DNA of 64,000 nucleotides from Clostridia bacterium (GTDB taxonomy: Bacteria; Bacillota; Clostridia; Oscillospirales; Acutalibacteraceae), in assembly GCA_017466365.1 (NCBI GenBank), contig JAFTUG010000008.1:1-64000 (forward strand), read 5' to 3'. The number at the start of each line of letters is the position of its first letter. The first letter of the stretch is position 1. This document shows, in pieces, positions 32,114 to 35,537 of the stretch. The position numbers were made by a program, and so were the translations under genes. The notes under the pieces are model-generated. The model made no database searches and was not told the DNA's origin. It saw only the letters and a program-made list of their open reading frames with translations.

Positions 32114-33004
32114 TTATCCCATATAAACTCTTTTGATTTCAAGGCAATCCTTCTGCCCGATTTCGCCAACGCCGATAAAATTTCCTTCAGGGTCATAAAC
32201 CCTGAAAAAGCCGAGCATTCTCGGATAACAAAGCCTTTCAAGCGAAAGCTCACCGCCGTTGCGGAAACGTTTTGCCTGCGCCTCGGAAACTCTGATTACG
32301 GGGTATTCCTCCAGAGCATGGTCAACGGGAATAAGCAATTCGGAAATGCTTCCGCTTTTAACGGCTTCTTCAAGCTGCTCGAGAGTTACGGCGTTTTCTA
32401 TTTCAAAGCCGTTTGCCTTTGTTCGGCGAAGTTCAGTCATTACGGCACCGCAGCCGAGTGCTTCGCCCAAATCAGAGATAAGCGTTCTTACGTATGTTCC
32501 CGAAGAACATTCAACCTGAATTTCATATTCGCCCGATTCCTCGTTTTCGGAAAGAACATCAATCGAAAAAACAGTTACCTGTCTTGCTTCTCTTTCAACC
32601 TCTATGCCTTTTCTTGCAAGGTCATAGAGTCTCTGACCGTTAACCGAAACCGCCGAATACATCGGAGGAAGCTGACTGATATCGCCTATAAAACCGTTGA
32701 TTTTTTCCTTAACCTGTGCCGCATTAACGTTAACCTCTTTTGTTTCAAGAACCTTGCCAGTTATGTCAAGAGTATCCGTGACTGTTCCAAGACGGAAGGC
32801 TGCACGGTAAGCCTTGTTGTGGCTCGGAAGAAGCTCAATAAAACGTGTTGCGCCGCCGAGCATAACGGTTAAAACTCCCGTCGCCATAGGGTCAAGAGTG
32901 CCTGTGTGTCCGCATTTTTTCTCTCCGCATATTCTGCGGACTCTCGCAACTGCGCCGAAAGAGGTTATGTCCTTCGGCTTATCGAGAAGAATTATTCCTG
33001 TCAT
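32114..33004 (-). CDS. truB: tRNA pseudouridine(55) synthase
   Basis: The 296-aa protein opens with TGIILLDKPKDITSF and has the catalytic Asp in GHTGTLDPMATGVL, then RLGTVTDTLDITG, VRTLISDLGEALG and a PUA-like C-terminal end. It makes pseudouridine 55 in the T loop of tRNA. truB usually lies beside rbfA in Firmicutes; here it sits 4 kb away behind the sortase fusion gene, with an 11-nt gap, and so may be cotranscribed with it. Confidence 0.95.
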   Translation of the reverse strand: MTGIILLDKPKDITSFGAVARVRRICGEKKCGHTGTLDPMATGVLTVMLGGATRFIELLPSHNKAYRAAFRLGTVTDTLDITGKVLETKEVNVNAAQVKEKINGFIGDISQLPPMYSAVSVNGQRLYDLARKGIEVEREARQVTVFSIDVLSENEESGEYEIQVECSSGTYVRTLISDLGEALGCGAVMTELRRTKANGFEIENAVTLEQLEEAVKSGSISELLIPVDHALEEYPVIRVSEAQAKRFRNGGELSLERLCYPRMLGFFRVYDPEGNFIGVGEIGQKDCLEIKRVYMG

Positions 33005-33015
33005 AGATTACCTTT

Positions 33016-34872
33016 CTAATCGTTAAATAAGTTAATATCATTCTTGTGGGGATTTTCTCCGCCGTTTGCAGCATAATATGCCTGCGGTAATTTCGGACTC
33101 GGATTTTCAGCGGCAATAGAAGTATCAACGACAGCGCTTTCTCCGTCACGAAGAAGCCTGCCTACTATAACAAGCCTTGCATCCGAAAAATCGTAGCAGC
33201 ATGTGGAAAGAGTCAGAATTTTATCGGACGGATTAATGTCAACGCCGGTTGAATAGAATTTTCGCTTGTCAACCTCTGCAATGTAGTTTGCAAAGTTTTC
33301 ATCCGTGGTGTTTGTAAAAACATAGTTGAAGAAATTGCCGTTATCATCGTTTCTTTCGCTGTTGGTGATGAAGGCGGCATATATCTTAAATGTGTAGTCG
33401 CCGTAAATCGTACTCATGCCTATAATCGGAGCTTTTTTGAAGCCGTCAACGGTGCGGTACTGCTCAAGAGTGCCGAAAATCTTATCGTCACGGCGCATGT
33501 TGTGGCCGTAAATAATCGTGTTTCGGTCAAGCGAATGAAGAGAATTTCTGAAATCAAAAAACGGAACACCGTATGAAGTGCTGTTTCCGTAGAAATCCCT
33601 GCGCTCGTATTTCTTGTTATCATCGCCCTGTACAACAGCATAGTCGATATTCATTTCAGGTATGGAAATCCAGCCTGCAAAGTCACGGTTAGCTGCATAG
33701 AGGTCGGCAAAAGACGGATTCATGCCTGCGGGGAAATCAACATCGGGGTGCTTGTTGGTTATTTCCTGCCACGGGTCAACAGGGCTGTCGGGCAGAGTGG
33801 TTTGCAGCATGGATACCATTTCAGAGGATTGCTTTGATTCTTTGTAAGGTTCAATAACGTAGTTGTTCAGCAGTATTACGCCGCCTGTAAGGAAGCAGAT
33901 AACCGCAAATGAAAGAGTGATTCTTCTCGTTATTTCGGAGCGAGACAATTTGTTTTCTGCGGACTTTTCTCCCTTGAGTGCGGAGTAAAATTCCGAAATG
34001 CTTTTGTATCTCTCATTTTTGTCAAGGGAAAGACCTTTACAAATCACCGCTTTATCATGCTCGGAGAATTTCGGCGGAAATTTAAGCTCTCTGCCCTGCG
34101 CTCTCTGTGAGGCATTGGGCGGCAAAAATCCCGTTACGGCTTCGTAGATAATTGCAGCCAATGCATAAACATCTGTAAATGAGCCGCACTCCCTTGTACC
34201 GAGCTGTTTTTCCGGCGCATCAAAAGGTGAATAAACATTTTTCGGGGGATAGGTATAGCCCGAAACCGACACGGTTTTTCCGTTATCGGTTATTATCGAA
34301 TAAGGTGAAAGCGAGCCGTGCCATTTGCCTTGCTTTTCAAGAGCTGCGGCGCTGTCAATAACGGGCTTTATAAGTTGTATCGCCTTTGAAAAAGGCATCG
34401 TTTTTCCGTTGCCGATAAGAGATGAAAGCGGAGTGCCGTTATCAATTGAATTCACAAAATAAAATGTTGAATTTTCGGCAAAGCAGTCGGTAAAATTCAG
34501 AGCGGATTTTTCGGAAGCGGCGCAAAGCTTTTTGTAGTGAGCATAGTAAGCCGCAATTTCTCTGTCACCCTTTGCAAGGCATTTCTCGTTGTAATATTTT
34601 ATTATAAGCTCTCCCGTATGGCGGTAGATAAGCCTTTCATGGAGATATTCCGAAATTTTTACTCTTTGAGATGTTTTTGTGTCGAAGGCATAATACGAAA
34701 CAAAAACCTTTTCTTTGGAGAACACACCGCCGAGAATGTAGCGGTTGTTCAGCCTTGTGCCTGTAGGGAGACAGTTTTCAAACTGTTTTTCCATAACACC
34801 GCCGAAGCCGCATACCGTGCAAGAGGTTGCGGAATCGGGACATTCGCTCAAGCAGTAAACGCAGCGTTTCAT
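33016..34872 (-). CDS. Zinc ribbon, pseudokinase, membrane segment and class B sortase fusion
   Basis: This 618-aa protein has four parts. Residues 4-21 hold a CxxC-x10-CxxC zinc ribbon. Residues about 37-300 follow the bacterial Ser/Thr kinase fold, but the glycine loop is degenerate (LGGVFSKEKVF), HRD is replaced by WHGS (184-187), and the DFG Asp is lost (VSVSGY, 202-206). Lys72 and FTDVYALA remain, so it is read as a pseudokinase. Residues 316-336 form one membrane helix. Residues about 375-575 are a class B sortase with His457 (YGHNM), Cys558 (TLSTC) and Arg566. A 45-residue Pro/Asn-rich tail ends the protein. The kinase-like part is predicted cytoplasmic and the sortase extracellular. 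AAAGGAGG precedes the ATG. Confidence 0.9.
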   Translation of the reverse strand: MKRCVYCLSECPDSATSCTVCGFGGVMEKQFENCLPTGTRLNNRYILGGVFSKEKVFVSYYAFDTKTSQRVKISEYLHERLIYRHTGELIIKYYNEKCLAKGDREIAAYYAHYKKLCAASEKSALNFTDCFAENSTFYFVNSIDNGTPLSSLIGNGKTMPFSKAIQLIKPVIDSAAALEKQGKWHGSLSPYSIITDNGKTVSVSGYTYPPKNVYSPFDAPEKQLGTRECGSFTDVYALAAIIYEAVTGFLPPNASQRAQGRELKFPPKFSEHDKAVICKGLSLDKNERYKSISEFYSALKGEKSAENKLSRSEITRRITLSFAVICFLTGGVILLNNYVIEPYKESKQSSEMVSMLQTTLPDSPVDPWQEITNKHPDVDFPAGMNPSFADLYAANRDFAGWISIPEMNIDYAVVQGDDNKKYERRDFYGNSTSYGVPFFDFRNSLHSLDRNTIIYGHNMRRDDKIFGTLEQYRTVDGFKKAPIIGMSTIYGDYTFKIYAAFITNSERNDDNGNFFNYVFTNTTDENFANYIAEVDKRKFYSTGVDINPSDKILTLSTCCYDFSDARLVIVGRLLRDGESAVVDTSIAAENPSPKLPQAYYAANGGENPHKNDINLFND

Positions 34873-34925: not shown

Positions 34926-34955
34926 TATCCCATCAAATTTTTATGGTGATTATAT

Positions 34956-35537
34956 ATGAAAAACGGATTTTTTGCAATGGTTTCAAGAATGAAATATATT
35001 AATCGCTGGGCGCTTATGAGAAATGAGCACAGCGAAAATTTGTGTGAGCACAGCTTTGAGGTGGCCTCGATTGCACATGCGCTTGCCATAATAGGAAACC
35101 GCCGATTCGGCAAGAATCTTAACGGAGAAAGAGCAGCTTTTCTCGGGCTTTATCACGATACTCCCGAAACCCTGACCGGTGATATGCCCACTCCTGTTAA
35201 GTATTACAGCGACGAGGTGCGTCTTGCATATAAAACGGTTGAAGAAAACGCCTGCAGAAGCCTCATTGAAATGCTTCCCGAGGATTTCAGGGATGACTAT
35301 AAGGCGGCGTTTATTCCCGAGGAGAATGATGCCGAGCTTTGGAAGCTTGTTAAGGCGGCGGATAAAATCAGTGCTCTTATCAAGTGCATCGAAGAAAAAA
35401 AGGCAGGTAACAGCGAGTTTGTAAAAGCAGGTGAGGGGCTTCGAGAAGCGGTTGAAAAGCTCGGATTGCCTGAAGTAAAGGTGTTTATCGAAGAATTCCT
35501 GCCTGCATATGAAATGACTCTTGATGAATTGAGATAA
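34956..35537 (+). CDS. HD-domain 5'-deoxynucleotidase, YfbR-like
   Basis: The 193-aa product matches the YfbR type. It has RWALMRNEHSENLCEHSFEVA, which supplies His ligands, the HD pair in YHDTPETLTGDMPTPVKYY, and KAADKISALIKCIEE late. YfbR removes phosphate from dNMPs. The gene has its own promoter and converges back to back with the amidohydrolase: its stop at 35535-35537 abuts the opposite stop at 35538. Confidence 0.88.
   Translation: MKNGFFAMVSRMKYINRWALMRNEHSENLCEHSFEVASIAHALAIIGNRRFGKNLNGERAAFLGLYHDTPETLTGDMPTPVKYYSDEVRLAYKTVEENACRSLIEMLPEDFRDDYKAAFIPEENDAELWKLVKAADKISALIKCIEEKKAGNSEFVKAGEGLREAVEKLGLPEVKVFIEEFLPAYEMTLDELR

Follow-up and report, generated by a model that had tools for sequence, protein, structure and literature searches.

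The window, a stretch of 64,000 nucleotides from a Clostridia bacterium of the Acutalibacteraceae, carries on its minus strand a gene in which a zinc ribbon, a kinase-like domain, one membrane helix and a sortase follow each other in a single open frame (Table 1). A sequence-only reading had described this frame without stating its strand, and the description was borne out. The plus strand of 33016-34872 is interrupted by many stops. Since other species carry the same fusion at the corresponding place among their genes, it is neither a chance product nor a misassembly. The hydropathy scan gave one helix, and because basic residues lie ahead of it, the N terminus and the kinase half are predicted to be in the cytoplasm and the sortase outside, which is the topology that had been proposed.

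Table 1. Positions of the fusion gene, its parts and its neighbours in the window
Feature	Position	Strand	Remark
truB-like gene, 11 bp downstream of the fusion gene	32114..33004	-	
Complete fusion gene, from the zinc ribbon through pseudokinase and membrane helix to the class B-type sortase	33016..34872	-	618 aa, ATG start
Class B-type sortase fold, residues 389-573	33154..33708	-	Pfam, NCBIfam and PDB matches
Sortase Arg566 (in DARL)	33175..33177	-	Arg in 13/17 aligned rows
Sortase catalytic Cys558 (in STCC)	33199..33201	-	conserved in 17/17 aligned rows
Sortase catalytic His457 (in YGHNM)	33502..33504	-	conserved in 17/17 aligned rows
Outer linker from helix to sortase fold, residues 337-388	33709..33864	-	
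Single membrane helix, residues 318-336, basic residues before the helix	33865..33921	-	hydropathy scan
Kinase C-lobe, residues 136-300; APE, TDVY and ERY motifs retained	33973..34467	-	alignment
Kinase N-lobe, residues 35-135; degenerate Gly loop, Ser74 at the beta3 Lys	34468..34770	-	alignment
Zinc ribbon, residues 1-34; Cys 4, 7, 18, 21 as CxxC/CxxC	34771..34872	-	Cys kept in 11/11 full and 4/4 short forms, absent in G484
Promoter-like match TTGCAA-17-TATAAT upstream of the fusion gene	34949..34977	-	consensus match only; 12 in region vs 5.0 expected
Divergent YfbR-like 5'-deoxynucleotidase gene, conserved neighbour	34956..35537	+	

The sortase half matched the Pfam Sortase model (PF04203) above its cut-off (E 2.5e-12, 47 against 26.6 bits). 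With the NCBIfam model for class B sortases (TIGR03064), the score of 147.5 bits (E 3.7e-43) fell short of the curated equivalog cut-off of 153.75 bits, and the domain is therefore named class B-type here. The protein had 16 matches in the PDB, 12 of them named sortase B and three under other names (1rz2, 3psq and 5jcv), of which we take 5jcv to be a class B sortase. The other two, 1rz2 and 3psq, are class B sortases according to PMC4371152.

The catalytic residues His457, Cys558 and Arg566 were confirmed at the positions that had been claimed for them. Their conservation was followed in 17 aligned rows, comprising 16 forms with the kinase module or a remnant of it and the paralogue of G015. 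At the position of Arg566, three of the 11 full forms have another residue (N in G483, S in G482 and K in G488), and G015 also has K. An arginine six residues further on, Arg572, is present in 17/17 rows. Since Arg566 is replaced in G483, G482 and G488, their sortase may be weakened or may rely on another residue at this place.

To describe the kinase half, the catalytic motifs were tabulated in 62 rows, some of them partial or repeated. Fifteen rows are fusion kinases, and two of these (L142 and L143) were dropped because they repeat the genes of G000 and G490 in truncated form, leaving 13 distinct fusion kinases, 12 that align in full and the contig-cut copy of G496. The beta3 (VAIK) lysine, the HRD aspartate and the DFG aspartate are missing in 13/13, each scoring 0 of 3, and the GxGxxG loop is likewise absent in all 13. 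In the window protein W184-H185-G186-S187 stands at the HRD motif (HGS at 185-187) and S204-G205-Y206 at the DFG motif. At the alphaC glutamate, 11 of the 13 fusion kinases have His and the other two have Phe; in the window protein the site is His112 by MAFFT or Tyr113 by hhalign. The activation segment from DFG to APE measures 17 residues in 13/13 fusion kinases, whereas it has 27-29 residues in nine comparison rows in which the alphaC Glu and the HRD and DFG aspartates are all retained; two of these rows are truncated ahead of the Gly loop and the beta3 Lys. The structural motifs of the C-lobe, APE and the TDVY-like and ERY-like sequences, are retained. Judged by these residues, the kinase domain is catalytically dead. 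The loss of the glycine loop and of the HRD and DFG aspartates had been noted before, and the beta3 lysine and the alphaC glutamate have to be added to it. The suggestion that the inner domain senses a nucleotide was not supported: with the DFG Asp, the alphaC Glu and the beta3 Lys lost along with the Gly loop, nucleotide sensing is unlikely.

The descent of this domain was not evident from the single protein, since the Pfam Pkinase match stayed below its cut-off of 31.7 bits both for the whole protein (17.5 bits, E 0.003) and for the N-terminal half (20.3 bits). The remaining PDB match was the kinase PpkA, over residues 28-258. The match became secure once relatives were added. A profile of 12 aligned relatives (A1) found PpkA in the PDB with 2.8e-17, together with other Ser/Thr kinases, and 12/12 A1 members matched Pkinase at E <= 0.1. 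When A1 was compared by hhalign with a set (A2) of eight genus kinases with intact motifs, of which two are PASTA kinases and six have a zinc ribbon, the profiles matched over 300 columns, zinc ribbon included (100%, E 1e-46). By this profile comparison the inner domain is a kinase by descent, in support of the earlier reading. A likeness to the MADS6 defence kinase, at 42.9 bits against a cut-off of 460 (NCBIfam), was set aside as plain kinase likeness. Among the Pfam or NCBIfam hits of the window protein up to E 1, no match to the EssB/YukC family was found, models of which these libraries presumably include.

The occurrence of the fusion in the genus was determined in 45 genomes by a search with residues 1-301, followed by reading of the loci. 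The full form was present in 11 (G000, G490, G483, G482, G481, G498, G494, G145, G479, G474 and G488), and a form without the zinc ribbon in two (G484 and the contig-cut G496). In four genomes (G500, G492, G489 and G499) the sortase comes with the zinc ribbon and a remnant of the N-lobe, and the C-lobe is missing. No fusion was found in the other 28 of the 45, of which 18 are less than 90% complete and 10 are not. A locus from sheep rectum (L006, RGIG6189) did not differ in its matches from the copy of G490 and was not counted separately. Wider searches were made with genomes of the class, family and order, and these would overlook distant, independent kinase-sortase fusions. When A1 was run against 391 class genomes, the window gene scored 546.1 bits and the next match 158.1 bits; 29 further matching loci from these genomes (L201-L229) had no sortase match. 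Among the matches listed for 200 family genomes, full-length ones came from the source genome and G145 only, and among those listed for 295 order genomes there was none besides that of the source genome.

The frame over about 300 residues is retained in 10/10 of the other full forms. In four full-form pairs dN/dS was 0.04-0.17 for the N-lobe, 0.07-0.20 for the C-lobe and 0.05-0.11 for the sortase, the C-lobe value being 1.3 to 2 times that of the sortase; since synonymous change is about 1 per site in the pairs except G145/G494, their ratios are rough. The N-lobe remnant gave 0.35 and 0.48 in two short-form pairs. By these ratios purifying selection acts on the dead kinase of the full forms, whereas constraint is relaxed in the short forms. 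Since sister species keep the arrangement, the dead half probably has a job. The four relatives with only the zinc ribbon and the N-lobe remnant, and G484 without the zinc ribbon, indicate that every single part of the module can be missing in one species or another.

A quick tree built from 77 sortase domains united the four short forms and the 12 that bear the pseudokinase in one clade (SH-aLRT 99). This clade adjoins the acidic-tailed SrtB of the genus (the C5 locus of the source genome, and G015) with a support of 90. The 11 fusion rows included in the kinase tree also formed one clade (100), and long branches leave the nearest kinase group open. The simplest history from these trees would be that the tailed SrtB of the genus was duplicated and captured the N terminus of a zinc-ribbon kinase, followed by an early catalytic loss and later by partial losses. 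The C5 locus of the source genome (L107, 2363-9095) has in succession on one strand a gene that we take to be cinA-like, a 328-aa srtB, a 692-aa srtB with an acidic inner tail of about 390 residues, and a SpoIID-domain gene.

Sortases are usually regarded as enzymes of the outer face with short inner tails. A paper by Kline from 2009 reportedly deals with localisation in Enterococcus faecalis. For the sortase SrtC1, the abstract of PMC4829219 reports that N-terminal residues affect function. Among the sortases nearest to the fusion, the helix starts past residue 150 in 25/30 loci (L002, L009-L037), and since long inner tails are thus usual in this group, the inner part probably matters. When ten long sortase proteins were scanned, six had a whole or partial CinA domain before the helix and the class B-type sortase (L040, L041, L044, L048, L058 and L039, the last with Big_2 domains after it). 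These CinA-TM-SrtB fusions, which presumably belong to the Oscillospirales, resemble the window protein in having a folded domain before the helix of a class B-type sortase, but the inner domain is CinA and not a kinase.

Cotranscription of the fusion gene with the gene downstream, which we take to be truB, had been claimed. In the source genome this is plausible, as the gap is short and no terminator match lies in it; there is one weak promoter-like match (9 of 12) at 33018-32991. The adjacency, however, is not conserved. In the loci read, truB is adjacent only in the source genome and G490; it lies about 8-10 kb off in G145, G494, G498, G474 and G479, while in G481, G482, G483 and G488 truB and the fusion are on different contigs. 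An operon with truB was therefore dropped as a functional link. The loci of 12 genomes were read for their neighbourhoods, and 11 were counted, as that of G015 turned out to be the other sortase locus. The YfbR-like gene was beside the fusion or within about two genes of it in 11/11 loci, an amidohydrolase gene was near it in 9/11 and a gene that we assume to be rimP-like in 10/11. The fusion of G145 is directly preceded, on its own strand, by a TPR gene and a DUF4037 gene (L102 3092-4769; Pfam). A DUF4037 gene upstream of the fusion was also found in G484 (Pfam), and look-alikes were seen by eye in G488, G494 and G496; these loci are labelled L102, L100, L105, L106 and L101. Both genes are missing from the fusion slot of the source genome. 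The TPR and DUF4037 neighbours are candidate partners.

Substrates were sought by their C-terminal sorting signals. No convincing case was found among 607 frames, whether genuine genes or not, in 511 kb of the source genome that included the window, in agreement with the earlier remark that no sorting-motif substrate lies nearby; candidates sit elsewhere in the assembly. The class B signal model TIGR03063 gave nothing above its cut-off in the source genome. With the LPXTG model, four of eight matches in the whole assembly were above the cut-off, and these four proteins end in IPSTG, LPDTG, IPETG or IPNTG followed by a hydrophobic stretch and a basic tail. Since this model also exceeded its cut-off in 9/14 control genomes, the list of substrates is tentative and its members are candidates. 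The assembly has three sortases, and as the two others could serve the same list, no sorting signal can be assigned to the fusion sortase.

The source assembly has three Pkinase matches, none of which is an intact PASTA kinase. One contig of it (C12; L109 4080-5801) encodes a protein with a zinc ribbon, a pseudokinase, a membrane helix and two PASTA domains that has 0 of 3 catalytic residues. Five tabulated homologues likewise have 0 of 3, and frames resembling it, some 600 aa long, are found repeatedly in the genus. An intact PASTA kinase is present in four relatives that bear the fusion (G145, G494, G483 and G479), and a partner kinase for the inner domain is therefore possible. In G145 the kinase gene is flanked by genes that we take to be rlmN and rsgA (L232). 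The rsgA-like neighbour, used as a query in a search without a positive control, had no match in the source assembly. Since the PASTA kinase and this neighbour are both unmatched and the assembly is 79.6% complete, the locus is likely absent through a gap. Residues 301-317, from the kinase domain to the helix, have no conserved Ser/Thr column among the 11 full forms.

MviN of Mycobacterium, which is not known to be a sortase, has its pseudokinase fused to MurJ. According to PMC12599244, the ActPs3 pseudokinase is joined in MviN to a membrane protein of the cell wall, and the phosphorylated tail recruits FhaA. By this description it resembles the window protein in that a dead cytoplasmic kinase domain, with all catalytic motifs lost, is tied to an envelope protein; the window protein carries a sortase instead. 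The same paper describes EssB/YukC of type VIIb secretion as a Firmicute membrane pseudokinase with a role as scaffold and in dimerisation; it resembles the fusion in that its Gly loop is degenerate and its activation loop reduced. EssB/YukC is part of a secretion machine, and the passage of PMC12599244 on it mentions neither a zinc ribbon nor a sortase. The paper presents both EssB/YukC and MviN as pseudokinases acting as scaffolds.

The best PDB matches of the window protein, class B sortases such as the SrtB enzymes from Clostridioides difficile and Staphylococcus aureus, share with it the sortase fold and the His, Cys and Arg residues. The fusion differs from them by about 317 residues before the helix, mostly derived from a kinase. 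The C. difficile SrtB, according to PMC4371152, is a class B enzyme that cleaves SPKTG, and the substrates discussed for it do not belong to iron uptake, whereas the candidate signals in the source genome are IPxTG or LPxTG. Class B sortases as such are known, and a pseudokinase would be a new kind of inner domain for a class B-type sortase. Among CC-licensed PMC papers, judged by their title and the start of the abstract, no description of a kinase-sortase or CinA-sortase fusion was found.

The reading that we favour, to which we give a little less than an even chance, is that the protein is a class B-type sortase placed by a non-catalytic inner domain for docking or self-assembly, while the outer domain joins IPxTG or LPxTG proteins to the wall. 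The zinc ribbon-pseudokinase module would have taken the place of the cytoplasmic tail of the sortase. It would perform no phosphotransfer and very probably bind no nucleotide, but may dock to other proteins or assemble with itself and so gather or place the sortase at a site of the membrane, where the outer domain would then link its substrates to the cell wall. Both the docking or assembly role and the substrates are what we infer. Counted against this reading were the excess of the C-lobe dN/dS over that of the sortase, the 28 other genomes of the genus in which no fusion was found, the replacement of Arg566 in three full forms, and the partial modules of the four remnant-only relatives and of G484.

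The pseudokinase could instead work as a transmembrane switch, as had been suggested at the outset, taking up an inner signal from a ligand or a partner kinase and, for instance through dimerisation, activating or silencing the sortase outside. We consider this unlikely, although the predicted topology fits, the pseudokinase of the full forms is under purifying selection, intact PASTA kinases occur in four fusion-bearing relatives and receptor-like kinases with a zinc ribbon and interchangeable outer domains exist in the genus. A single helix and an outer linker of about 50 residues would make direct coupling hard, and the ATP-site residues are lost. Moreover, the C-lobe is dispensable in four relatives that keep the sortase residues, so that any switch would not need a whole kinase fold in every species. 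That the inner domain performs a different ATP-dependent catalysis, in the manner of SelO or SidJ, is most improbable. Some pseudokinases have such an activity according to PMC12599244, but here the beta3 Lys, the alphaC Glu and both catalytic aspartates are gone in 13/13 distinct fusion kinases.

Another possibility takes MviN as its model: an active kinase would phosphorylate the inner domain or the juxtamembrane segment, and a phospho-reader would be recruited. The mycobacterial precedent (PMC12599244) and the PASTA kinases of the four relatives speak for it. The segment ahead of the helix, however, lacks a conserved Ser/Thr column, the activation segment is cut to 17 residues, and the source assembly is without an intact PASTA kinase, where the unmatched rsgA-like neighbour suggests an assembly gap. 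We regard such phospho-docking as rather improbable, and hold the same view of the kinase half as a decaying vestige next to a sortase that works alone. The short forms without the C-lobe, their faster N-lobe remnant in two pairs and the loss of the zinc ribbon in G484 are what a vestige would lead one to expect. In the four full-form pairs, however, the N-lobe and the C-lobe together stay within a dN/dS of 0.04-0.20, and a frame of some 300 residues has been kept by all the other full forms.

Taken more widely, the sortases of the order might be commanded from the cytoplasm, with large inner domains (acidic tails, CinA or a dead kinase) controlling where or when proteins are anchored to the wall, and the pseudokinase version would then be a signal-gated transpeptidase. 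This is a speculative proposal that we think unlikely to be correct. A conserved inner domain that is dead as a kinase yet kept by purifying selection offers a way to study how the anchoring of proteins to the wall could be positioned or controlled from the cytoplasm. Few bacterial pseudokinases have a job that can be guessed, and the fusion adds another kind of output to them.

The zinc-ribbon Ser/Thr kinases of the genus have the same N-terminal module and the same arrangement as the fusion. Their outer domains are LRR_5, DUF6273 and PASTA, and no sortase was found among the ten scanned. Unlike the fusion, the six members of the group labelled active in the tree keep all three catalytic residues. 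Among these genus kinases (L076-L092), one group (L078, L080-L082 and L085-L087) is partly or wholly degenerate.
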